Positions 40,414-50,943 of a DNA stretch of 64,000 nt are shown here, in pieces. The DNA lies in assembly GCA_017408025.1 (NCBI GenBank), contig JAFQVJ010000041.1, positions 26,283 to 90,282 of the forward strand. The letters are read 5' to 3'. Under the pieces are notes generated by a model. That model had not been told where the DNA came from, did no database searches, and saw only the letters and a list, made by a program, of their open reading frames with translations. The stretch comes from Lachnospiraceae bacterium. GTDB lineage: Bacteria > Bacillota > Clostridia > Lachnospirales > Lachnospiraceae. How positions within the stretch are numbered: position 1 is the stretch's first letter; each line of letters begins with the position of its first letter. The translations under genes were made by a program, and so were the position numbers.

Positions 40414-40641
40414 TGTCTCTTGACCTCCTGTATTTACGGGCTTTTCGCCGTTTTCTCTTTTCCTAAAAATGTGCTACTACACCATTTTTACACCATCCAC
40501 GCTAGCTACGAGCCATGCTCGGATAAGCTTGAATTGTCTGTTGGGTGCTCGCACACATAAAGACAATTTCAAGATTAGACGAATACGGCGACAGCCGTGA
40601 CCGAGAGAGCTCTGCTCTCGAGGTGCATGCTCGTACTGCCA
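40414..40641. other. Island end / probable attachment region upstream of pyrE
   Basis: A 228-base stretch without a gene between the integrase stop and pyrE. It holds two GGTGTA hexamers 12 bases apart (near 40485), two CATGCTCG copies (near 40513 and 40627), and a GAGAG/CTCTC hairpin near 40605. Such short repeats are common near tyrosine-recombinase attachment sites. The exact crossover is not identified. Confidence 0.45.
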
Positions 40642-41913
40642 TCACATTGCCTTTTCCATCAACCTCATCGCCTCGAACAAAGTATCATCTGTCACATGAC
40701 AATACAAATCCATTGTCATCTGCAACGAACCATGTCCTAAAATCTTTTGCAAGGTTTTTGGCTGCATTCCGTTTTCGATTGCTCTCGTGGCAAAAGTGTG
40801 GCGAAAACAATGTGGTGAGAACTTCTCAAATTCCGGATATTTCTTTTGTATATTGCGGACACAGGCTCTTATGCCTTCCTGTACGATAAACTGTTGTGTC
40901 GGTCTGTTGTTCTTGGTTACAAACACCAAATCCTCGTATCCTTCAGGGGCCTTTCTGCCTTTCCATTCGATTTCTAGTTTCTGAACCTTCTGTTTCCTCA
41001 AAGCCTCATAGGCTTTCTGAGTGAGCGGAATCGTTCTTCTACCGTTCTTCGTCTTAGTGTCGTGCATCTCAAAGGTGTATTTTCCATCCTTACGAAAATA
41101 GCACAATGTATGCCGCACATACAACACTTTCTTTTTCAAGTCTATATCCGACCAAGTTAATGCCATCAATTCTCCGATACGAAGTCCTGTCTCTAACGCC
41201 ACGACAAAGAGATTATAATAAATACTCGTTTCTGCCTGTTTTAGAAAAAGTTCCGTTTCCTGAACAGTAAGTACCCGACGCTCCTTTTTGTCCTCTTTAC
41301 TGACCTTGGTATTGATTTGCTTCGCCGCATTCTTGATTAACAATTCTGCATCAATGGCTTTCTCAAGCATATCCACTAAAATCTTTTTGGAGTTCTTACG
41401 CTCATTGTCACTTCGAAGGTCATTAAACACCTGTTGTAATACGATGAGATTTAGGTTGGTCAGCTTTATCCAACCAAGTTCCTTTTGAATCCTTCTGTAA
41501 TGACCTGCATATGTCTCCTTCGTGGAGTTTCTGCAATTCTTCTTACAGGTATTCATCCAGACCTCATACCACTCATCCAGAGTCATTTCCTTGCTTATAA
41601 CATTGAGCATCTTTTCATCTTCGTACTGCTCTGTTCTTAATTGATGTCGGATCTCATTCAGCGTTTTCGCATAAATCGTCTCTCTTTTACCGAAGCGATT
41701 TACAAAACGCGCCTGATACAGACCATCCTTCCTCTGTGAAATTCCTTTTCCTAATTCTTTACCATTAAGGGATTTCCCCATTTGTGCCTCCTTTCTAGGC
41801 TGTAGCATAGAAAAGGAAACATCAAATATCCCATCTATACTACCATAAAACCTTGAATTTTTCAACCATTTCAGCGTGTCGTTTGGTATATATCGCAAAT
41901 GCATTAACGACAC
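40642..41913 (-). CDS. int: Tyrosine recombinase / integrase of an integrative element
   Basis: A 423-residue site-specific recombinase of the Tn916/phage type. An N-terminal AP2-like arm-binding part (LGKGISQRKDGLYQARFVN, near residue 50) and a SAM-like core-binding domain precede the catalytic domain. Catalytic residues are in LETGLRIGELMAL (Arg), HCFRHTFATRAI (His-x-x-Arg) and DLYCHVT (Tyr). It is the outermost gene of the island and faces pyrE, the usual arrangement next to attL/attR. The true start may be MGKSLNGKELGKG, about 44 codons downstream of the first ATG. Confidence 0.92.
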   Translation of the reverse strand: MSLMHLRYIPNDTLKWLKNSRFYGSIDGIFDVSFSMLQPRKEAQMGKSLNGKELGKGISQRKDGLYQARFVNRFGKRETIYAKTLNEIRHQLRTEQYEDEKMLNVISKEMTLDEWYEVWMNTCKKNCRNSTKETYAGHYRRIQKELGWIKLTNLNLIVLQQVFNDLRSDNERKNSKKILVDMLEKAIDAELLIKNAAKQINTKVSKEDKKERRVLTVQETELFLKQAETSIYYNLFVVALETGLRIGELMALTWSDIDLKKKVLYVRHTLCYFRKDGKYTFEMHDTKTKNGRRTIPLTQKAYEALRKQKVQKLEIEWKGRKAPEGYEDLVFVTKNNRPTQQFIVQEGIRACVRNIQKKYPEFEKFSPHCFRHTFATRAIENGMQPKTLQKILGHGSLQMTMDLYCHVTDDTLFEAMRLMEKAM

Positions 41914-41922
41914 GTTTTTTAC

Positions 41923-42114
41923 CTACAAAATTTGATTTAACAGCCATGTATCTAACTTTCCTTTGTGTGCATATAGTCTGTTCCCAATGCGAATAGTAAA
42001 GTTGTTCTTTGGATCAGAAAGGAGTTCTCTTGCCTTGGTCTGACCGATACCCAAATACTCACACATCTCTTTCACATTGAGTAATGCTTTTTTATCCATC
42101 TTATCCATCATCAA
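41923..42114 (-). CDS. xis: Excisionase (Tn916 Xis-like, MerR-type helix-turn-helix)
   Basis: 63 residues with LNVKEMCEYLGIGQTKARELL (helix-turn-helix) and NRLYAHKGKLDTWL. These small proteins bend DNA at the element ends and steer the integrase toward excision. It overlaps the upstream gene by 4 bases (ATGA) and precedes int by 9 bases, so int is likely made with it. Confidence 0.88.
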   Translation of the reverse strand: MMMDKMDKKALLNVKEMCEYLGIGQTKARELLSDPKNNFTIRIGNRLYAHKGKLDTWLLNQIL

Positions 42115-42650
42115 TCCACTTTCACTCCTCTCTCCTCAAGTTGCTGCTTTAACTCAATTGCCTGTCCCAAAGTTGCATCCATCTTATCAAAATACCTACA
42201 TGATTCTGTTCCATTGCCCTGCGTCTCTGCCAAATCCGATTTTGCATCATAATACCACGCCAATGTTTCTAAATAACGATAACGGAGTAAATCATATTCC
42301 AGTTCAAGAGACTTATACTTTCGTTTCAGTTCCATCAATCCATCCCTTGCTTCTGTCTCCTCCTTGGGCGGATATGGATAAGGTTTTAGCCTGATAGGAT
42401 AGATGGAACGCAAATCTTCAATAACTGCTTTGAACTTCTCTTCGTCCAAATAAAACTTCCAATGAAAACTCTTAACAATTCCATTCTCATCCTCTAACGC
42501 TCTCTGCATCTGATATCGTGCAGTCGCCTCCGGTAATCCCAACTCTTGCATCAAATACTCTTTGATTTCCTCTTTCTCTCTGCCTTCATTGCCTAGGAAC
42601 TCACAAATATGTCTGTACTTACAAAAATGTTCTAACCACTTCCTCTGCAT
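42111..42650 (-). CDS. Island protein of unknown function, 179 residues
   Basis: The N-terminal half (MQRKWLEHFCKYRHICEFLGN ... LPEATARYQMQRAL) looks like a winged-helix or helix-turn-helix fold. The C-terminal half is a predicted coiled coil (RDGLMELKRKYKSLELEYDLL). It is first in the 179aa-xis-int unit, and a 72-bp tandem repeat tract begins 24 bases upstream of it. A DNA-binding role in excision or replication control is plausible but unproven. Confidence 0.7.
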   Translation of the reverse strand: MQRKWLEHFCKYRHICEFLGNEGREKEEIKEYLMQELGLPEATARYQMQRALEDENGIVKSFHWKFYLDEEKFKAVIEDLRSIYPIRLKPYPYPPKEETEARDGLMELKRKYKSLELEYDLLRYRYLETLAWYYDAKSDLAETQGNGTESCRYFDKMDATLGQAIELKQQLEERGVKVD

Positions 42651-42673
42651 TTTCTTTCCCTCCTTCTAATTAG

Positions 42674-42870
42674 TACTTAGGGTCAAAAAAAGCTGATTAC
42701 AAAAATTTCCCGAAATTTTCTTCAACTTTTTCTACTGTCACTTATTACTTGGAGTCAAAAAATACTGATTGCAAAAATTCCGTGAAATTTTCTCCAACTT
42801 TTTCTACTATCACTTATTACTTGGAGTCAAAAATAGCTGACGGAAAAAATCCAGCAAAAAAGTCATCAAC
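42674..42870. repeat. 72-bp tandem repeat, about 2.7 copies
   Basis: Units start at 42674, 42746 and 42818, an exact 72-base period. The third copy is partial and diverged. Each contains TACTTGGAGTCAAAAA and TTTTTCTACT blocks. They lie just upstream of the 179-residue gene in the int operon. Confidence 0.85.
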
Positions 42871-43489
42871 ATTTCTGCTAATGACTCTTAAACAAAACAT
42901 ATTCTCTTATATTCCCTTGTTGCAAGTGTACTTTCTATGATTTCAGAGCCTCCGGAAAATGAGTCTCAAAAAGTGAGACTGCCTTGGTCAGCGTCTCCGA
43001 CCGGAATCCAGTGCCACTTTACTCTCGTCAGTCTATCCGACCGAAGAAATCCAGCAAAATCAAGGGTTTCAGCCAGGCTGTCTACAGTCTCGAACTAGAG
43101 ACTTTGTCCAGCGTAATTGGACTGCGAAATAAACAGGATACGCCTAAAATTGCATACACTTTACACGACAGTACCGCTGACCAACCAGGCTGTTCACTTT
43201 AGGGTGCCCCTAAAACCCAAATATTGGTCAAGAGAAAGAAAAAGACACTTCTTGTCACGATAACCAGAAGTGTCCCATAGACTTAGCTTCAACTTTTGGT
43301 CATCGTGACCAAAAGTTATATTCTGCACTTATATGTTGACAGCATGAACCCGCTGATGCGCTCATAGGCAAATAAGAAAGGCTCTGATTCCTACCTATCT
43401 CAATAGAAACCAGCGCCTATCGCTCTTGTAACAGCCTAGCACATCAGCCCCTGCTGTAAACATATGAATTTTTACATAACTCACATACA
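42871..43489. other. Non-coding region with hairpins in the island
   Basis: No convincing gene. It contains a GACACTTCT/AGAAGTGTC hairpin (43244-43274), a perfect 12-base palindrome arm pair around TCG (43291-43317, AACTTTTGGTCA), and several TTGGTCA words (near 42984, 43225 and 43296). Base composition here is higher in GC than in the flanks. It could hold an origin of transfer or an element end, but no nick site is recognisable. Confidence 0.5.
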
Positions 43490-44005
43490 CTAAAGTAATA
43501 TCTCATATTTGTAATCCTTCATGATAATATCCGTTCCTTTTTTCTTATATGTGCTTTCACTTACGATTTTTCCTCCGCATTTCTGCGCAACACGATTTGA
43601 TGCAACATTCTCCTGTCCCACAAAAATAGTAACTTTCTCTGCACCTTGCTTGCGCGCATACTTAATCATGCCTTGTGCAATTTCCGTCGCATATCCTTGG
43701 CACCAGAAGTTTTTGTGCACACAGTAGGCGATATCATATACCTTCTTATCTTCACTCACCATAAAACTGCATGTCCCCACTCTTTCCATAGAACCTTTGA
43801 AAACAGGAATCAAATAACAGCACTCTTCATCCTCACCCAAACCTTCTAACATTTTTAGGTATTCATCATCTATATCTTCCTTTGCTTCATCCGGCAAGTA
43901 TTGTCCCATCTCCGGATTATTCCAAATACTATATGCCCATAAAGCATCTTCTGTTGTAAAACCTCTCAAGATAAGCCTTGATGTTTCAATGTTTTCTATT
44001 TTCAT
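43490..44005 (-). CDS. RimJ/RimL-type GNAT acetyltransferase
   Basis: 171 residues opening IETSRLILRGFTTEDA, the usual RimJ-type start. HKNFWCQGYATEIAQ forms the acetyl-CoA loop and NVASNRVAQKCG the C-terminal helix. It is preceded by GGAGG and lies 15 bases after the stop of the HNH gene. Acceptor unknown; it is cargo of the island. Confidence 0.85.
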   Translation of the reverse strand: MKIENIETSRLILRGFTTEDALWAYSIWNNPEMGQYLPDEAKEDIDDEYLKMLEGLGEDEECCYLIPVFKGSMERVGTCSFMVSEDKKVYDIAYCVHKNFWCQGYATEIAQGMIKYARKQGAEKVTIFVGQENVASNRVAQKCGGKIVSESTYKKKGTDIIMKDYKYEILL

Positions 44006-44020
44006 AAAATCCTCCGTACA

Positions 44021-44521
44021 TCAAAGATAGGCTCTATGTCCTTGTTTAATGTTCCAATTTGCGACATGTTGTACATATGTACTCTTCCTAGATTCTGTGT
44101 ATCCTGCAATTAGAACAAGTGTACCCGGAAGTAGCGGACACAGTTTATCTTGTTCCACATACCCCCAAGCAACTGCTATATCAGACTTCTTTGATGTAAA
44201 TATCGTTTCATCAGTTTCGTCAACGTCCATCTTCGTCATATTATCTGAGAATCCATATTTTTTATAGCATTTATCTCTATGCCCCTTTAACTCTGCTGGG
44301 GTATACATTCTTCCTTTAGGATGTCTGGGATTGTATGATTTCACCTCCGCATGGCAGTTAAAGCACAACGGAATACAGTTATCCACACTATTATCTCCTC
44401 CATCTGCAACTTGTATTATATGATGAAGTTCTATCTTTGATCCTACAAATTCCCCACATATACAACAATGTCTTCCACAGCGAACTAATACCTCATCAGC
44501 AACACTTGTTGGAAACCCCAT
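44021..44521 (-). CDS. HNH endonuclease-type protein with truncated P-loop tail
   Basis: 166 residues. The N-terminal HNH/zinc module (about 14-65) shows CCICG, IELHHIIQVADGG, NCIPLCFNCH, with paired cysteines and the His/Asn core. After about residue 130 the chain resembles the beginning of a RecA/DnaB-like ATPase (PGTLVLIAGYTESRKSTYVQHV), then stops at RAYL. The Walker A Gly before Lys is Arg here, and the rest of the ATPase is missing, so the tail is probably inactive. It may be a remnant of a larger HNH-ATPase fusion cut by insertion of the acetyltransferase gene. Confidence 0.75.
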   Translation of the reverse strand: MGFPTSVADEVLVRCGRHCCICGEFVGSKIELHHIIQVADGGDNSVDNCIPLCFNCHAEVKSYNPRHPKGRMYTPAELKGHRDKCYKKYGFSDNMTKMDVDETDETIFTSKKSDIAVAWGYVEQDKLCPLLPGTLVLIAGYTESRKSTYVQHVANWNIKQGHRAYL

Positions 44522-44571
44522 AATGCATACCTCCTTAACTTGCGTATTATCTTGCGTACTTTCTCCATCAG

Positions 44572-45912
44572 TTACTGCAAGTCTTTTAGCAAAAACAAAA
44601 TCATATATATCGGTTTCAATTTCAATGTACCGATTTTTCCTACATCCTTTTGAGACAAAAGGAAACGTTCTCCCACCTGCTTTGAATATTTGACTTCAAA
44701 GTTATCAATTGATTTATGATTATTAATTGCCGCAGATTTTACTTCTATCGGAACCACCTTATTCTTGGAAGTAACAAGGAAGTCTATTTCAAATGAATGC
44801 GTGCTTCCCTCTTTTCTCCATGTGTGATAATACAAATCTCTTCCACTAGCCTTTATCGCTTGCGCCACTACATTTTCGTATAAATAACCCAAATCTGCCG
44901 TTAATGTATCACTCAACAATTTCTTATAAATGTCTTCTATGCCATTTTGCGCGTCATTAAAAAGCATAGTAGTAAAAAGTCCTATATCTGACAAATACAA
45001 CTTAAAACAGTTCATATCCTTTGTCTGTGCCAGTGAAACACTTGGATTTAACACATTATAGCAAGGCAATACCAAACCAGACTCAATTAACTCAAAAAGA
45101 CGTTCCTCATCCTTTCTTGTTTTTTGTTTTCCGGTAGCTGCTGTAATCGCATAATGTTTCTTCTTTGCCGCAAGTTGGCAAGGAACAGATTTATACATAT
45201 CTGTTATCCTGCCTGATGCATCAATCTTTTTTAAATCATCATAATACAGTTCCAGTATTTCACGTTTCACTTTATCCACAGACTCAAAACTATTCGTAGA
45301 AATATAACATTCTACCGCCTGTGGCATTCCTCCTACAGCCATATAGATGCGGAAATCTCTCATGGCATTACGATTCACAGTATTACCAAGTTCCATGTTG
45401 CTCTTATACGCCATATCAAGAACATTTGGATTTCCCCCTACAGCCCACAAAAATTCTTCATAATCCATTGGATATACATGAATTTTATGTTCCTCAGACG
45501 GAATCAATATATTCTTCACATTTTTCTTTATGGATATCAAAGAACCGGTTTCAATGTAATCATATCTACCATCCTTCACAAGATGCTTGATTGCCTGTCT
45601 TGCCTTTGGAAATAACTGAATCTCATCAAATATGATTACTGATTTTCTTTCATAAAGTTCTACTCCGGCTTCCATCTGCAATCTCAAAAAGAAACGGTCA
45701 AGTTTAGAAATGTCTTCAAATATATCCAGCATTTCCTTACTAGTATTTGAAAAATCAATCAGTATATAGGAATCATATTCCTTTCGAGCAAATTCCTCTG
45801 CAATTGTCGTCTTTCCTACACGTCTTGCACCTTCAAGCAAACATGCATATTTCCCATCCCATTCCTTCTTCCATGCCAGTAATTCTTCATATACTTTTCT
45901 TTTAAACATCAT
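44572..45912 (-). CDS. AAA+ ATPase with DUF4143 / nuclease-fold C-terminus (copy A)
   Basis: About 446 residues starting MMFKRKVYEELLAWKK; GGAAGG lies 5 bases upstream, so the longer frame is rejected. AAA_14 motifs: Walker A LEGARRVGKTT (near 30), Walker B SVIIFDEIQLFP (near 93), ETGSLISI sensor. The C-terminal DUF4143 part carries a PD-(D/E)xK-like set, FEIDFLV then VPIEVKSA. Function of the family is unknown. Three 33-bp-spaced repeats overlap its predicted promoter. A second, diverged member is at 49330-50688. Confidence 0.85.
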   Translation of the reverse strand: MMFKRKVYEELLAWKKEWDGKYACLLEGARRVGKTTIAEEFARKEYDSYILIDFSNTSKEMLDIFEDISKLDRFFLRLQMEAGVELYERKSVIIFDEIQLFPKARQAIKHLVKDGRYDYIETGSLISIKKNVKNILIPSEEHKIHVYPMDYEEFLWAVGGNPNVLDMAYKSNMELGNTVNRNAMRDFRIYMAVGGMPQAVECYISTNSFESVDKVKREILELYYDDLKKIDASGRITDMYKSVPCQLAAKKKHYAITAATGKQKTRKDEERLFELIESGLVLPCYNVLNPSVSLAQTKDMNCFKLYLSDIGLFTTMLFNDAQNGIEDIYKKLLSDTLTADLGYLYENVVAQAIKASGRDLYYHTWRKEGSTHSFEIDFLVTSKNKVVPIEVKSAAINNHKSIDNFEVKYSKQVGERFLLSQKDVGKIGTLKLKPIYMILFLLKDLQ

Positions 45913-45961
45913 CTTCACCTTCCGTTTATTGATATTCTGATGATAATACTTCTTTTTATTC

Positions 45962-45989
45962 ATTTTATCAAAAATTATATTTTTTTCAA
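45962..45989 (-). promoter_or_regulatory. Predicted promoter of ATPase copy A, inside the repeats
   Basis: On the minus strand TTGAAA (45984-45989) and TAAAAT (45962-45967) are 16 bases apart, about 50 bases before the start. The -35 hexamer is part of the first repeat unit. Confidence 0.55.
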
Positions 45990-46060
45990 CATTTCAGGTG
46001 GAGAAAAATATAATTTTTTCAACACTTTGCAATACAAATAATATATTTTTTTCAACACAA
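45970..46060. repeat. Three direct repeats at exact 33-bp period upstream of ATPase copy A
   Basis: Each unit is AAAATATAATTTTTTCAACA-like on the plus strand. The CAACA word starts at 45987, 46020 and 46053, an exact 33-base period (about three helical turns). The tract covers the predicted promoter. Confidence 0.88.
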
Positions 46061-46098
46061 GCATAGAATTTCAGCTTCCAGATTCATCCACTCCGTTT

Positions 46099-46145
46099 AA
46101 AAAATGCACAATGTATTAGAAAAACCAATGCTTTGTGCATTTTTT
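46099..46145. terminator. Hairpin with 13-base perfect arms
   Basis: AAAAAATGCACAA and its exact complement around a 21-base loop, with A and T runs suitable for termination on either strand. It separates the ATPase promoter region from the next gene. Confidence 0.65.
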
Positions 46146-46165
46146 AAATTATTAGACAGCAAAAC

Positions 46166-46199
46166 GGCGGTGAACTACTAAAAATTTCTTTTCACCGCC
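46166..46199. repeat. Hairpin GGCGGTGAA / TTCACCGCC
   Basis: Perfect 9-base arms with a 16-base loop and no T-run. It lies in a gene-free stretch of about 430 bases before the membrane protein gene. Nothing else is seen there apart from the terminators. Confidence 0.55.
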
Positions 46200-46365
46200 A
46201 CTTTCGAAACGCTAAAATTTATCTTCTTTCGCAATTCCATGACTCTGTATACACACGGGTTTCTCCGCACTTTCTCTTGTGGCTTCATGATACTCCCTTT
46301 AAAATAGCTATTTATTTACATCATATCGATGTATAAGTTCATTTTTGATATGTGAACTAAGATTA

Positions 46366-46393
46366 AAAAAGAGCCACCGAAGTGACTCTTTTT
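46366..46393 (-). terminator. Terminator of the island membrane protein gene
   Basis: Minus strand AAAAAGAGTCAC hairpin with one mismatch, followed by six T, immediately after the stop at 46395. Confidence 0.85.
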
Positions 46394-46394
46394 C

Positions 46395-46835
46395 TTAGTT
46401 ATTATCAGCCCATACTTTTATTCCCAATATCAATAATCCAACCGCAATCAACAAAATCCAAAAATCAGATATAATATTGGTTTGAATGATCCCCACTACA
46501 ATTGCCAAGATAACATTAAGTATGTAGTATATCACCATTTTCCACTCAATTGTTTCATACTCTGTTTTGTATTCATATATCGACTTAATTATCAAAATAA
46601 GCGACACTGTAGCTACTACAAACATTGCTGCAAAACTCGCTTTTGCTAAGCCGCCACACAACAGACACAACATGTACTCTTTAGGCGATGTAAACATAAA
46701 CTTAAACGCTTCCACCAACCCAGCGGGTTTTGCCAAACCCACAATTGCATCAAAATATACTATTGCACAGATTGCAAATACCGCGCAAATTGTAACGGTA
46801 ACATACCATTTGGTAATTTTTCTCATAATGTCCAT
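46395..46835 (-). CDS. Island membrane protein with four predicted helices
   Basis: 146 residues with hydrophobic segments near 10-30, 55-85 (CLLCGGLAKASFAAMFVVATVSLILII), 100-120 and 122-140. AGGAG lies 8 bases before the ATG. No family recognised. It is followed by a clear terminator and preceded by the broken small gene at 46855. Confidence 0.7.
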   Translation of the reverse strand: MDIMRKITKWYVTVTICAVFAICAIVYFDAIVGLAKPAGLVEAFKFMFTSPKEYMLCLLCGGLAKASFAAMFVVATVSLILIIKSIYEYKTEYETIEWKMVIYYILNVILAIVVGIIQTNIISDFWILLIAVGLLILGIKVWADNN

Positions 46836-46854
46836 TATCTATTCTCCTCTTTTC

Positions 46855-46974
46855 CTAATTTGGAGTAGAACGCCTGTGACCAGCAACCTTTGTTCCATCC
46901 TTTTTAACATAAGATTTTACTGGAACTATTTTCTTGTTTTAAGTGCCTCTAACACTTGATTTAGTTTTTGCCAT
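46855..46974 (-). pseudogene. 39-codon basic miniprotein with an in-frame stop
   Basis: GGAGG then ATG opens MAKTKSSVRGT, a TAA follows at codon 12, and the same frame continues NKKIVPVKSYVKKDGTKVAGHRRSTPN. The tail KSYVKKDGTKVAGHRR resembles small basic proteins that recur in mobile DNA (from memory). The conserved-looking tail after the stop suggests a recent nonsense mutation. Confidence 0.6.
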
Positions 46975-47038
46975 TTCTCTTTCCTCCATGACATGAGAAA
47001 CAGCAGCATTCCAGCTGGTTAAAACGCTGCCCTGTTAA

Positions 47039-47161
47039 CTAGTTACTCTTAACCGGCTCCGGACCTGGACCTATCCAGATACGAAATGCACGCTTACCAT
47101 AGTCTTTGGCGTATATTTTACCGCCATCCTTTGTGGTAATGCTTGTACGAAAAATGTACAT
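47039..47161 (-). CDS. 40-residue miniprotein MYIFRTSITTKDGGK...
   Basis: The start is the ATG at 47161 with AGGAGG 7 bases upstream; the longer upstream frame lacks a ribosome site. The sequence is YIFRTSITTKDGGKIYAKDY then GKRAFRIWIG, with no signal or membrane segment. Unrecognised function. A divergent plus-strand promoter and terminator overlap its 5' leader (see 47224-47303). Confidence 0.6.
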   Translation of the reverse strand: MYIFRTSITTKDGGKIYAKDYGKRAFRIWIGPGPEPVKSN

Positions 47162-47188
47162 AAACATTCCTCCTTTCACAAAAAACTC

Positions 47189-47217
47189 TTGCGAAAGTAC
47201 ACCCACAGTGGTACAAT
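47189..47217 (+). promoter_or_regulatory. Predicted promoter of a small RNA
   Basis: TTGCGA (47189-47194) and TACAAT (47212-47217) with 17-base spacing on the plus strand. It lies in the leader of the minus-strand miniprotein gene. A GTAC...GTAC near-palindrome spans 47197-47215. Confidence 0.45.
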
Positions 47218-47223
47218 TTGTTT

Positions 47224-47303
47224 TGCGAAGACAATTTGTAACCAGCTGAACTGTACGTGTACTTTTCAGCACGAGCCAAGCATCTTAGGTGCTTGGTTTT
47301 TTT
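47224..47303 (+). ncRNA. Candidate ~80-nt small RNA
   Basis: Between a plus-strand promoter and a strong rho-independent terminator (CCAAGCA/TGCTTGG arms 47276-47282 and 47290-47296, then seven T) there is no ORF. The predicted RNA is divergent from the 40-residue gene and complementary to its upstream leader, if that leader extends this far. Confidence 0.4.
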
Positions 47304-47337
47304 ATGCATAAACCCTAGGGTAATACATCATATATTA

Positions 47338-47886
47338 TTATGCTATTAAAACTTGGTCCAACATTCTTATTTCATAACTTGTATAATCACGTTCACCAAA
47401 TTTCAACCAATTGAGATAATATCCGTATGCATACTCTGCAGCCTGATAACTTATATCAAATTTTTCCATAATTAACTCAATTGTAACATTCTGTCCAAGA
47501 TTATGTATGAGCGCTGGTGGAGCCAATGCATATTTAGCAAAGAATTTAGCTTCTGCTTCCTCAACCTCGCCATCTTCTGTATGCCCTAATGCATAATGAC
47601 CTATTTCGTGCATAATAGTTTGGTTTATTCTTCCATAATTTGAACATGAATCATTATAAAAAATTGTCCAATTGTAGCCATTATCCTCCGTCGAAAATCC
47701 ATCTAAACTTACACTCATGGCAGCTTCTTGTTTTTTCTGACTTAAGGCAGAATATGGCACAACACCGATTCCCATCTTTATAGCAATTTCAAATGCACTG
47801 ATGGGAATGCTCTTCACACCATATTCTACAAATGTATCTGCTACTACCTTTTTAATTTCCTCATACTGTTCATCGCTTAATCGCAT
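47338..47886 (-). CDS. ImmA/IrrE-family metallopeptidase
   Basis: 182 residues with the zinc motif HEIGHYALGH (near residue 91-100) and a following Glu-rich helix EVEEAEAKFFAKYAL typical of the family. In ICEBs1-like elements ImmA cleaves the partner repressor to induce excision. The XRE gene starts 8 bases upstream in the same direction, so this is a repressor/antirepressor pair of the island. A toxin-antitoxin role is an alternative. Confidence 0.88.
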   Translation of the reverse strand: MRLSDEQYEEIKKVVADTFVEYGVKSIPISAFEIAIKMGIGVVPYSALSQKKQEAAMSVSLDGFSTEDNGYNWTIFYNDSCSNYGRINQTIMHEIGHYALGHTEDGEVEEAEAKFFAKYALAPPALIHNLGQNVTIELIMEKFDISYQAAEYAYGYYLNWLKFGERDYTSYEIRMLDQVLIA

Positions 47887-47894
47887 TGGCCCTC

Positions 47895-48215
47895 CTACTC
47901 ATCCCCAATAAGAATGCTCATTAACTCCACTTTTTCTTCTTTAGTCATATGAGCCGCATTTCTAGCAATTAACGTTTTAACAACTTTAAAATCACTCTTT
48001 TTGTTGCTCTCTCCATTTTGGTCTAAAAGATAATCCGTAGTCACATCTAAGGCATTAGCGATTTTAATCAGATTAACTCCTCTTGGAATACGATCCCCTT
48101 TTACATAATGTGAAACCGCAGACTCGGTTATTTCTGCCTTGTGTGCCAACTCCTTCTGCGTCATTTTCTTAATAAAAAGTTGCTCAGTAATACGACTTGC
48201 CACACTTCCTGCCAT
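47895..48215 (-). CDS. XRE-family repressor
   Basis: About 106 residues starting MAGSVASRITEQLF. GGAGGG lies 7 bases upstream, so the ATG at 48230 is rejected. The helix-turn-helix is MTQKELAHKAEITESAVSHYVKGDRIPR (residues 15-42). It is the likely DNA-binding partner of the ImmA-like peptidase. Confidence 0.88.
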   Translation of the reverse strand: MAGSVASRITEQLFIKKMTQKELAHKAEITESAVSHYVKGDRIPRGVNLIKIANALDVTTDYLLDQNGESNKKSDFKVVKTLIARNAAHMTKEEKVELMSILIGDE

Positions 48216-48370
48216 CTTTTTTCCCTCCATATATGTGTCTATTGTTACACTTTACATTTTATAAAAGAATTATCACTTTGTCAACTTTTTAATTCTAAAA
48301 TATTTATAAACTGTTTCCCATCAGTATATACTTCTTTTGCCAAGATATATGACCTATATTATCAAATCGG

Positions 48371-48922
48371 GTAGGAGGTAGATAATTATTTTATCTACCG
48401 ACCTCCCACACCACCGTACGTACCGTTCGGTATACGGCGGTTCTTTAGTTTTCACATATTTTCAAATAGAACTCTGTGAATGTTGGATATCCCCATTCTC
48501 GGAGTTTTGCATTATTCAGAGCAAACTGTACCATTCTGTTACTACTACAGTTCCAAATCCCTTGTCGCATATTTGCGTGCCATTGAATATATTTTTCGTC
48601 CATTCCGAGTTCTTTCAGTTTTCTGTATTTCGTTTTGCTTTTCTTCCACTGTTTCCAATAGATTGCTCTTATTCTGTGGCGTAGCCACTCTGCCACATTT
48701 ACCACAGTTAATTCCGAGTAGTTATTGGACTTCGATTTGAAATGCAACCTTATCCTTAACTGTAGCCTGATGTGATTTCTGTTCGTCAGACCAGAGATTT
48801 GCCTACACCTTCCTTCAGATTCCACCTCACGATGGACACCCTTGGTGTTCGGCTATATCCTTCCCACTACTAGGGCGGATTCGGGACTTTCACCCGTTAG
48901 AAACGTGCGCCGCTAGGCGCAC
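48371..48922 (-). mobile_element. Decayed group II intron
   Basis: On the minus strand the 5' end GTGCGCC at 48922 fits the GUGYG consensus. A domain V-like hairpin with a GAAC loop is at 48410-48441, and a domain VI-like hairpin with end CCTCCTAC lies at 48371-48404. Only about 550 bases remain, so most of the catalytic RNA domains and the reverse transcriptase are gone. It is inserted directly behind the T-run of the riboswitch terminator, a target preference known for group IIC introns. Confidence 0.8.
48445..48825 (-). pseudogene. Remnant of the intron-encoded maturase C-terminus
   Basis: The last 80 residues (WLRHRIRAIYWKQWKKSKTK, then YIQWHANMRQGIWN and GYPTFTEFYLKI) match the maturase/X domain of group II intron proteins. 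The preceding residues are translated intron RNA. The reverse transcriptase domain is missing, so this is not functional. Confidence 0.85.
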
Positions 48923-48924
48923 AT

Positions 48925-48959
48925 AAAAAAAGGTTGCAAAAGATTTCTCTCTTGCAACC
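48925..48959 (-). terminator. Riboswitch expression-platform terminator
   Basis: Arms GGTTGCAA (48952-48959) and TTGCAACC (48932-48939), inner AAGA/TCTT pairing, then seven T. The first arm overlaps the 3' end of the aptamer, so ligand binding could decide its formation. Confidence 0.85.
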
Positions 48960-49040
48960 GAACTACCATGTATAACCTTACGGCTTCTACTTTGCGTCCC
49001 TACGTTTCCATAGGTTTGCCCCCCTGATTATTTTATCCCA
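48950..49040 (-). promoter_or_regulatory. Cyclic di-GMP-I (GEMM) riboswitch aptamer
   Basis: On the minus strand the conserved GGCAAACC, the P2 stem with a GAAA tetraloop (CCTATGGAAACGTAGG), GGACGCAAAG and a P3 region with CCGTAAGG...GGTAG are present in the right order. This matches the GEMM-I consensus that binds c-di-GMP. It is followed by a terminator, but the next genes are the intron remnant and XRE/ImmA, which has its own leader. Its original target gene appears lost. Confidence 0.88.
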
Positions 49041-49226
49041 ACTCTACACTAAATATTTTATCATAAATTATAATATTGTCAATATTTGTTTACCTTATTC
49101 TTATCCCAATCTCTCTTCTTGAGATTTTTTTCATTTCCATGGAATGAGATATCTGCTAGAAAATATAATATATTTTTCGGCAATGTCCGGTGGAAGCACC
49201 CTAAAAACAACAAATAAAGCATACCT

Positions 49227-49316
49227 TTGCGAGGAAAGTCTGGTTCATTGGGAGAGTATTGTGCCAAATATCTTTTGCGTTGCCATAAGAAATACCTTGT
49301 GAATTTAAATGTCATA
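49227..49316 (+). pseudogene. Fragment of a LytTR DNA-binding domain
   Basis: A 30-codon plus-strand stretch reads SLGEYCAKYLLRCHKKYLVN then LNVI, resembling the LytTR motif (F-x-R-C-H-K-S-Y-x-V-N-L). There is an upstream stop, no start codon context and no continuation. It is probably debris of a response regulator. Confidence 0.4.
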
Positions 49317-49329
49317 CTTGAGTCTCATG

Positions 49330-50688
49330 TTATTCATTCTCATTGGTACTCACCCACTTTAAATAGTCCTTCAATAAAAATGAGCAAAAATAAGGAAATG
49401 TGTATATGTTATCACTAAATCCTATATTTCCTGCTGTAAGTTTTATCCCCCACTCTATGTCAGGATAAGCATCACTCCCTATTAAGGTTCTTAAGCTTTT
49501 TGCTGTTCCTCTTGTGGCTTTCACCTCCACGGGAACTAATGTATTGTGAGTACGAACAAAAAAATCCTCCTCTAATGTGGAATCATCTTTCTTATAATAG
49601 TACAATCCATATCCACATTTTGTCAGTGCCTCACCTACAATATTTTCATATAACGCTCCCTTATATACTCCAAGATTTTTATTTGCACGTAAATCATCCT
49701 GTGCCTCATTATCAAGCATAGCTACAAATAGTCCTGAATCAAAAAAGTATAATTTATACTTTTCTTCATTATAGTTACCTTTAAGAGGTAGTTCAGGACT
49801 ATTCATGCAATAGCATATATTTACAATTCCGGCATCCTTCATCCATTCAATACAGCCTCTGTAATCTTTAAATCGTGCACCTTTTGCAACCTTAGATACT
49901 TGAAATTTCTTATTATCCTTTCCTAACTGTACAGGTATCTGTTCAAATACATTAAGAATTCTCGTCTGGTCTAAGCCCTCTGCATATTTGCGTACATCCT
50001 CTCTATAATCCTCAAGGAGCTGACGTTGAAGGTCTAACGTTCCTTCAAATGTGCCATTTTTAATATATTCACGCACCACCGAAGGCATCCCGCCCAATAT
50101 ACAAAAGTCAAGAAACAAGCTGCTATACCGGGTCATTTCTATGTCATTGAAAGGCTTTTGCTCTTTCATGTGATTAAGAATTTCTTCAACCACAGTATTA
50201 TCATATCCTTTTGCCCACAAAAATTCTTCAAAATCCATGGAATGCATGTCGTAATCAACTTTATATCCTACACTATTGCTTTCTATTCTCTTATAATGTA
50301 TCCCCAGCAACGAGCCACTGCATATTATATCAAAACGCCCATCTACCTTAAAAAACTTTAAAGCGGTTGCAATCTCCGGATATTCCTGCAATTCGTCGAA
50401 TACAATAAGTGTTTCCTTTGGAATAAATCTCTTTGAAGGGTCCATTCGGGAAATATTACGTATAATATCATCCGTCTTATATCCATCCTCGGTAATAGAT
50501 TTATACTTAGCTTCCTCTACGAAATTTATATATATTACACTTTTGTAATTGTCCTTTGCAAATCTCTGTATGGATTCTGTTTTGCCTACTTGCCTAGGTC
50601 CTCTGACAATCAGTGGCTTTCTGTCGTCACTATTTTTCCATTGCAGTAAATATGAATCAATTTTTCTCTTCAGGTAAATACTTTCCAT
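49330..50688 (-). CDS. AAA+ ATPase with DUF4143 / nuclease-fold C-terminus (copy B)
   Basis: About 452 residues starting MESIYLKRKIDSYLLQWK; GGGAG lies 8 bases upstream, which favours this ATG over a GTG 9 bases earlier. Walker A VRGPRQVGKTE (near 28), Walker B LIVFDELQEYP (near 95), CSGSLLGI sensor. The C-terminal part has TLEEDFFV and VPVEVKA, a PD-(D/E)xK-like pattern. It shares architecture but only moderate sequence with copy A. Three 32-bp-spaced repeats overlap its promoter. Confidence 0.85.
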   Translation of the reverse strand: MESIYLKRKIDSYLLQWKNSDDRKPLIVRGPRQVGKTESIQRFAKDNYKSVIYINFVEEAKYKSITEDGYKTDDIIRNISRMDPSKRFIPKETLIVFDELQEYPEIATALKFFKVDGRFDIICSGSLLGIHYKRIESNSVGYKVDYDMHSMDFEEFLWAKGYDNTVVEEILNHMKEQKPFNDIEMTRYSSLFLDFCILGGMPSVVREYIKNGTFEGTLDLQRQLLEDYREDVRKYAEGLDQTRILNVFEQIPVQLGKDNKKFQVSKVAKGARFKDYRGCIEWMKDAGIVNICYCMNSPELPLKGNYNEEKYKLYFFDSGLFVAMLDNEAQDDLRANKNLGVYKGALYENIVGEALTKCGYGLYYYKKDDSTLEEDFFVRTHNTLVPVEVKATRGTAKSLRTLIGSDAYPDIEWGIKLTAGNIGFSDNIYTFPYFCSFLLKDYLKWVSTNENE

Positions 50689-50773
50689 AGTGCTCACTCC
50701 CTTATACCATCTTCCATTAACTATTCAGAGCCAATCCGCAAAAGGATTGACTCCAAATAGTTACTTTTATATT

Positions 50774-50803
50774 ATTATACAAAAAAATGAGGGACTTATG
50801 CAA
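50774..50803 (-). promoter_or_regulatory. Predicted promoter of ATPase copy B, spanned by a repeat
   Basis: On the minus strand TTGCAT (50798-50803) and TATAAT (50774-50779) are 18 bases apart. The whole spacer is the first repeat unit. Confidence 0.6.
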
Positions 50804-50862
50804 GCAATTAGCAAAAAAATGAGGGACTTTTTTTATTATCTCACAAAAAAATGAGGGACTTT
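50779..50862. repeat. Three direct repeats at exact 32-bp period upstream of ATPase copy B
   Basis: The 14-base core AAAAAAATGAGGGACT-type word occurs three times, with its T at 50788, 50820 and 50852, exactly 32 bases apart. Between the cores the sequence is not conserved. Confidence 0.92.
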
Positions 50863-50943
50863 CATACTGTGCATTATTCTTTAGTATATTTTCTACCATT
50901 CCTTCATAAAACATTGTCAGCTAAAACAGACATATCAGACAGA

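Follow-up and report, generated by a model that had tools for sequence, protein, structure and literature searches.

Promoter arrays in front of DUF4143 ATPases of the PDC-S01 family: phased direct repeats whose words vary with the protein

Why do two ATPase genes in one genomic island each carry three direct copies of a different word, spaced by about three helical turns, upstream of the start codon? This question is raised by a stretch of 64,000 nucleotides from a Lachnospiraceae bacterium (assembly GCA_017408025.1, contig JAFQVJ010000041.1, positions 26,283 to 90,282 of the forward strand), which we call the window and which belongs to a genome of 2.35 Mb in 71 contigs. A first-pass annotation, made from the letters of the window, had described two DUF4143 proteins (here gene 1 and gene 2) with an AAA+ domain and a PD-(D/E)xK-like C-terminus, each behind its own triplet, and had proposed self-recognition with autoregulation. 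We found that such arrays precede many genes of the family, that their words are conserved over the spacers between them, and that the words vary with the protein, on the whole most strongly with a predicted helix-turn-helix (HTH) segment. We consider it likely that each ATPase binds its own private array and thereby represses its own promoter, the array and the gene forming a portable cassette.

The two window genes and their promoter arrays

A direct-repeat search found AAGTCCCTCATTTTTTTG three times on the coding strand upstream of gene 2, with spacings of 32 and 32 bp, and TGTTGAAAAAA(A/T)TATA.. three times upstream of gene 1, with spacings of 33 and 33 bp, in agreement with the helically spaced triplets described before (Table 1). 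The array scores were 18.0 for gene 2 and 16.2 for gene 1, compared with maxima of 5.4 and 7.4, respectively, in 40 shuffles each. Relative to the chosen start codons, the copies begin at -173/-141/-109 in gene 2 and at -145/-112/-79 in gene 1, and the nearly equal distance from the start that had been noted for the two arrays is thus true to about 30 bp.

The repeats overlap promoter elements, as seen by a promoter scan for gene 1 and by eye for the other promoters. In gene 1, a promoter-like site TTGAAA-16-TAAAAT (45989-45962) begins within word 3, and the scan returned four sites in this stretch against an average of 2.0 in shuffles. Upstream of gene 2, the scan returned no site on the strand of this gene; its candidate promoter, recognised by eye only, combines the TATAAT that follows word 3 with a weak -35 element TTGCAT at an 18-nt spacer.

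Pfam finds AAA_14 and DUF4143 in both proteins and additionally the NERD nuclease domain in gene 1, and their nearest relatives at the protein level belong to Lachnospiraceae and to further Clostridia of the gut. By hidden Markov model, both are members of PDC-S01, a PADLOC candidate family for phage defence, with full-length matches (gene 2, 5.6e-157 over 8-445; gene 1, 7.2e-97 over 18-458; open reading frames (ORFs) as listed). In 28 aligned family proteins, the Walker residues are invariant, as are the nuclease-type residues E348, E388, and K390 (gene 2 numbering), and D375 is nearly invariant, which bears out the domain architecture that had been read from the window. Models of nuclease type matched weakly among these 28 proteins (UPF0102 in 15, best 0.00096; NERD in 6, best 3.6e-5; SfsA in 1). 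As the signature residues are invariant or nearly so and nuclease-type models match, if weakly, the PD-(D/E)xK domain is probably active as a nuclease.

Six DUF4143 genes are present in the own genome of the window. A third one, L002 (L, G, and C numbers are our handles for loci, genomes, and contigs), has a distinct 32-bp array with a word unlike both window words, whereas L003 and L005 have no array at the threshold given below and L004 is cut by a contig end. The first-pass annotation had suggested a genome-wide search for each word outside its own promoter, and in this genome none of the three words was found elsewhere at 0-1 mismatch. The gene 2 word has three exact copies and, with 2 mismatches, three further places (2 in a reversed-pattern control); the gene 1 word has three copies and, with 2-3 mismatches, four further places (2 in the control); and the L002 word has three copies and, with 2 mismatches, four further places (6 in the control).

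Spread, linkage, and co-variation of the arrays in the family

Relatives were gathered mainly by protein or family search, and a profile was built from 122 of the first proteins. Searching with this profile gave 321 full-length frames, of which 282 were non-redundant, and the 275 with at least 150 nt of upstream DNA free of N were tested; this set includes two genes that had been fetched by array pattern (L177 and L186, from index order). The profile finder was used in place of a first gene finder, which had left 14 loci without a gene and 5 with a short upstream region. With a triplet score of at least 8 as the threshold, 133 of the 275 genes had an array, 126 of them at 31-34 bp, 4 at 22-24 bp, and 3 at other spacing, in comparison to 3 of 2750 dinucleotide shuffles (none at a score of at least 9). 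The 31-34-bp arrays consist of three copies in 82 genes, four in 37, five in 6, and six in 1. As a control, we scored upstream regions of other ORFs, and 8 of 333 reached at least 9; five of these eight belong to family genes (L094, L038, L089, L088, and L160; loci as read) that the first finder had missed or de-duplicated.

The spacing differs between P-loop types. Arrays of 31-34 bp precede 125 of 259 genes of type GxRQxGK and 1 of 11 of type GIRRCGKS, and we take this single case (L136) for a neighbour's array in reverse orientation. With type GPKWCGK, all nine members looked at show a spacing of 23 bp: L038, L053, L062, L069, L368, L369, L370, and the 5'-truncated frame L372 at scores of at least 9, and L371 at 6.0, below threshold. 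As 32-33 bp correspond to 3.05-3.14 helical turns and 23 bp to 2.19, strict phasing is not universal. In 55 main-type genes without a called triplet, the strongest autocorrelation was still at lag 33, and the trait is therefore wider than counted.

According to record titles, many of them of metagenome bins, the cassette with its array occurs in at least one record each of Bacillota, Bacteroidota, Pseudomonadota, Spirochaetota, Kiritimatiellota, and Actinomycetota; two Fusobacterium records and an Acinetobacter record had no array at threshold. Chromosomes and plasmids carry cassettes alike. Single genomes can hold many family members, with 9-13 matches each, fragments and other subtypes included, in G012, G036, G130, G167, G175, G202, G225, and G262.

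The linkage of array and gene was seen in a scan of 40 whole genomes known to hold a family gene for three exact ATGTGA at 32-33 bp. The 38 matches represent 26 arrays in 25 genomes, and the 15 genomes without a match have deviating words. Immediately downstream of 25 of the 26 arrays lies a family gene (24 of these 25 were fetched, and G086:C27 was identified as the array of L130), and in 24 arrays the profile starts about 0, 33, or 66 nt past the matched ATGTGA triplet. The sole exception, L216 (G086:C9), is a near copy of the L130 array in the same genome, placed before an unrelated membrane-protein-like gene; a relic, a decoy, or a second regulated target are all conceivable.

A reversed-pattern control likewise gave 26 matches, in 17 genomes, in large part because another subclade uses AGTGTA as its word. 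These matches had suggested a high chance rate, but 10 of the 17 places followed up lie directly before family genes and have words of type GAAAAGTGTA. Among the reversed-pattern loci, L412 has about 1.2 kb, resembling an inserted element, between the array and the family gene, and L408 has an array followed by an apparently decayed gene start; L406 has no family gene downstream, L413 follows directly after a split family gene with none behind it, and L404 and L411 are plain tandem repeats. At L401 (G077:C72), an array precedes a second array and its gene, and the own gene of the first array was not seen between them. At L400 (G080:C19), two cassettes stand in tandem.

The words are more conserved than their surroundings. 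In a matched comparison of 9-mers (best of 13 shifts; orthologues of 80-97% identity; 489 comparisons each), the agreement was 0.833 for words, 0.536 for spacers, and 0.507 for random positions far upstream; this version takes the place of our earlier figures of 0.842 versus 0.378, which favoured the word by construction. Among the 70 best of 2240 pairs, the homology in many close pairs comprises the array and the ORF and ends there, for example, with limits of -169 to +9 in L112/L122 and of -125 to -25 in L132/L133, and it reaches further in L088/L089, L118/L119, L121/L124, and L141/L142. We call the cassette a portable unit and not a transposon: the homology edge near the array or the stop codon varies (e.g., -169, -193, and -198 in one group), which does not fit defined ends, and no search aimed at terminal inverted repeats or target duplications was made.

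The first-pass annotation had staked its proposal on a correlation between protein clade and repeat word, and this correlation is present. Word similarity followed protein identity with a rho of 0.507 in 84 arrays, compared with a maximum of 0.176 in 300 permutations; without the Bacteroidales clade, rho was 0.310 in 46 arrays (maximum of 500 permutations, 0.203), and in a larger set of 110 arrays it was 0.372.

With two measures of word similarity, ungapped and 5-mer, we asked which part of the protein predicts the word once the remainder of the sequence has been accounted for. For this, 78 arrays were used, namely, the 84 without L136_158, L152_155, L031_125, L152_114, L094_135, and L121_30, as well as the 110, which had been kept from 126 by score 9, spacing, position, and clade. 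With the 78 arrays, the ungapped measure had its peak of 0.297 at gene 2 residues 254-277; 40 permutations reached 0.145 at most, and no window outside residues 225-300 exceeded 0.21. With the 110 arrays and all pairs, the HTH region was top by both measures (0.274 versus 0.238 and 0.275 versus 0.262 elsewhere), and in bands of identity it was top at 35-55% by the ungapped and at 55-75% by the 5-mer measure. When pairs of 30-80% identity were taken, the best window was 265-284 or 257-276 (0.319 versus 0.251 and 0.322 versus 0.289 elsewhere), and the HTH region, which holds 11 of the 103 windows, came first in 92 and 56 of 100 bootstraps.

In the family profile, this segment lines up with residues 239-260 of a Thermus relative whose Pfam hits HTH_IclR (225-261) and HTH_5 (229-261) exceed the cut-off. 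Individual helices go with individual words: NFKFSRYENSF with ACGGACAAAAA (L063 and L002), SARMERYENSF with GAAAAACGTCGCA (L066), NARYNRYESGF with GAAAAACGTTACA (L280), NAKYHRYESGF with GAAAAAGGTTACA (L253), and NARSREYTGC with CTCATNAAATGTGA (L032 and L267). By their letters, the words look like variants of one theme, an A-tract beside a short specificity word, and not like independent inventions.

Proposed autorepression and its alternatives

The mechanism that we consider likely is as follows. A cassette would measure about 1.5 kb and begin with three to six operator words in phase, which lie over the promoter or next to it; a single ORF would come after them. The encoded protein would join an ATPase to a winged helix for DNA binding and to a nuclease domain of PD-(D/E)xK type. 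Through the winged helix, the ATPase would contact its own array, probably as an oligomer in which each unit takes up 32-33 bp (about three helical turns) or, in the GPKWCGK clade, 23 bp. By occupying at least three sites that lie close to the same face of the DNA, it would close its own promoter. Such autorepression would keep a dangerous nuclease at a low level, and lineage-specific words would permit several paralogues per cell to control themselves without cross-talk. Of the self-recognition proposed at first, the co-variation of the word with the protein, on the whole best with the HTH segment, has thus been observed, and binding is what we infer from it; autoregulation would be the natural reading of operators over a promoter. 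The pointer to a role against mobile DNA is the PADLOC assignment, which suggests that the proteins may serve in defence.

Several points weigh against this mechanism. In 142 of the 275 tested genes, the score is below 8, and the position of the array relative to the promoter, judged by eye, differs by clade between upstream, across, and downstream: it lies before and inside the promoter spacer in window gene 2, the L112 group, and L038, across the promoter in the L138 group, and between promoter and start codon in the L132 group. The margin of the HTH over other segments is modest. With the 78 arrays and the 5-mer measure, segment 208-231 was ahead (0.320 versus 0.286 for the HTH), other segments were top in the remaining six combinations of band and measure (20-35% and 75-100% by both, 55-75% ungapped, and 35-55% 5-mer), and in the Bacteroidales clade alone (36 arrays), in which the words barely vary, the HTH was not the top segment. 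Moreover, the window proteins themselves give no HTH hit in Pfam, the gene of the Thermus relative lacks an array, an HTH_3 regulator gene is found in the same island (47895-48230), and orphan arrays occur (L216, L406, and L413).

A further-reaching version of the mechanism, which we put forward as tentative and rather doubtful, makes the array itself a component of the defence: it would serve as a private parking place on which the ATPase-nuclease sits as a phased oligomer. Loss of occupancy, for example by titration or displacement by invading DNA, would then raise expression and free the nuclease, and the diversified words would keep up to a dozen paralogues orthogonal. In plasmid-bearing Thermus cells, TT_P0211 (AAA 14, DUF4143, and HTH motifs) was changed 6.6-fold (PMC4406477; this and the other cited papers are quoted from the portions of their text available to us). 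We did not use this plasmid induction as evidence, as there is no array at the ATP-binding gene on pTT27 that we equate with TT_P0211 from its domains and its neighbours and not from a locus tag.

It is less probable still, and in our view unlikely, that the array serves as an address beyond autoregulation, such that the ATPase-nuclease would attack or exclude plasmids or phages that enter the cell, or rival copies of the cassette, when they carry the same word. A second array of the window words was not found in the own genome, in plasmids, in phages, or in viral contigs, and these searches lend no support to the recognition of the same repeat elsewhere, with competition between mobile elements or copy control, which had been raised at first. 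The gene 2 word occurs in viral contigs as two lone exact copies only, and the gene 2 array is matched only weakly and partially in plasmids (1 record) and phages (9 records). AATGTGA triplets are found in 12 viral contigs. In 2 of these they precede a family gene; the DNA fetched for the remaining 10 contains none, and we read these cases mostly as coding or satellite repeats. Decoy arrays in viruses and plasmids were thus rejected, as nothing convincing was seen. An address function would agree with the conserved nuclease residues, the horizontal spread of single-gene cassettes, the three orphan arrays, and the count of within-genome pairs of at least 55% identity, which are rarer than under label shuffling (4 versus 11.0); however, one of the 4 pairs consists of a single gene that we had cut out two times, and orthologues make the null value too high, so that paralogue exclusion within a genome is suggestive only.

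That a host or neighbouring regulator and not the ATPase binds the arrays appears very unlikely to us. In this case, the words within one genome should resemble each other, but 25 within-genome pairs were no more alike than 1138 between-genome pairs (4.35 versus 4.43, P 0.92; pairs of 20-55% identity), which led us to reject a host-wide regulator. A neighbouring regulator is suggested by the lack of a Pfam HTH in the window proteins, the HTH_3 gene between both window genes, and the precedent of RptR, a separate small repressor whose targets are three repeats in the promoter of an island with defence genes (PMC12255303). Against it, related words recur with related proteins across phyla, and in most of the 70 best pairs mentioned above, the homology ends near the array and the stop codon with no shared neighbour.

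Least probable is that the words work at the RNA level, in the 5' leader, where they would serve as a translational operator or bind a protein. The arrays between promoter and start codon in some Bacteroidales (by eye) would suit this reading. Against it, the words of window gene 2 and L038 lie upstream of the -10 element or inside the promoter spacer (by eye) and would therefore not be transcribed from that promoter, and the spacing of about three turns fits DNA.

The surrounding island, related systems, and significance

Both ATPase genes lie in the interval between two genes that we take for pyrE and pyrD; 82 nt separate the gene 2 array from the pyrD stop. In one of four same-genus genomes (L232), pyrD and pyrE, as read, are adjacent, and in the other three, pyrD has different neighbours. 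As both are adjacent in L232, the stretch with both ATPase genes suggests an insertion between them. The HTH_3 gene between the ATPase genes adjoins an ImmA/IrrE-type Peptidase_M78 gene (47338-48230, minus strand), and such pairs are typical of mobile elements. Also between the ATPase genes, a c-di-GMP-I riboswitch aptamer (48950-49030, minus strand) precedes a short group II intron on the same strand (domain match 48660-48836, 3' part 48371-48442) by about 110 nt.

Table 1. Coordinates in the window of the two ATPase genes, their arrays, and associated segments
Feature	Position	Strand	Description
Gene 2	49330..50688	-	AAA_14-DUF4143 ATPase and putative nuclease, 452 aa from chosen ATG; PDC-S01
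Gene 2 array word 1 (AAGTCCCTCATTTTTTTG)	50844..50861	-	Direct-repeat search
Gene 2 array word 2	50812..50829	-	Direct-repeat search
Gene 2 array word 3	50780..50797	-	Direct-repeat search; perfect TATAAT (50774-50779) immediately 3'
Gene 2 predicted HTH segment, residues 242-289	49822..49965	-	Variation on the whole best predicts word; aligned with Thermus winged-HTH hit
Gene 2 PD-(D/E)xK-type motif, residues 348-390	49519..49647	-	E348, D375, E388, K390
Gene 1	44572..45912	-	AAA_14-DUF4143(-NERD) ATPase and putative nuclease, 446 aa from chosen start; PDC-S01
Gene 1 array word 1 (TGTTGAAAAAAATATATTATT)	46035..46057	-	Direct-repeat search
Gene 1 array word 2	46002..46024	-	Direct-repeat search
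Gene 1 array word 3	45969..45991	-	Direct-repeat search; holds -35 of promoter-like site
pyrE-pyrD interval with both ATPase genes	40414..50943	.	10.5 kb; pyrE and pyrD read from sequence, no family call

Direct-repeat arrays beside the gene of the protein that binds them are known from iteron/Rep and Orc1/ORB systems. In contrast to these, Pfam at E 0.001 finds no replication domain here, and the cassettes are found on chromosomes as well as plasmids.

The island controlled by RptR is a defence locus in which three direct repeats over the promoter mediate repression (PMC12255303), much as we propose for the candidate defence genes described here. However, RptR is a separate 9-kDa repressor, and its 9-bp repeats contain a TAGCTA palindrome (PMC12255303), whereas the arrays of the window family have other words, which differ by gene and stand 32-33 bp apart, and the evidence points to the ATPase itself. 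Another near mechanism is that of the type Ia ParA of plasmid F, a winged-HTH ATPase that represses the promoter of its own gene, with three dimers over about 85 bp (PMC8465637). This ParA has a deviant Walker A motif, a ParB partner, and CTTTGC hexamers that are partly inverted (PMC8465637); in the window family, AAA_14 is joined to a nuclease-type domain, the repeats are direct, and a partner is not known, and among the Pfam hits shown, AAA_14 and DUF4143 are present and the ParA family is not.

PDC-S01, an ATPase fused to the PD-(D/E)-X-K superfamily, is described as the fourth most common defence across all prokaryotes (PMC12988326) and, in a rumen survey, as the individual locus that occurs most often (PMC13356809). 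The available portions of these two papers do not mention a promoter array or self-recognition, and we found no description of promoter repeats in these genes in the titles and abstract beginnings listed by our searches of the open-access literature (subscription papers and preprints were outside this scope).

The PDCs of PADLOC are mostly without experimental validation, and PDC-S01 is among the commonest of these prokaryotic defence candidates (PMC12988326). If the nuclease were parked on its array, PDC-S01 would represent a large class of immune nucleases that are self-addressed and autoregulated. In any case, the arrays point to the likely DNA ligand of many PDC-S01 members and to an operator of fixed geometry, the co-variation of word and helix represents a specificity table that can be checked by simple binding or reporter assays, and the clade-dependent spacing of 32-33 versus 23 bp should report on the geometry of the oligomer.

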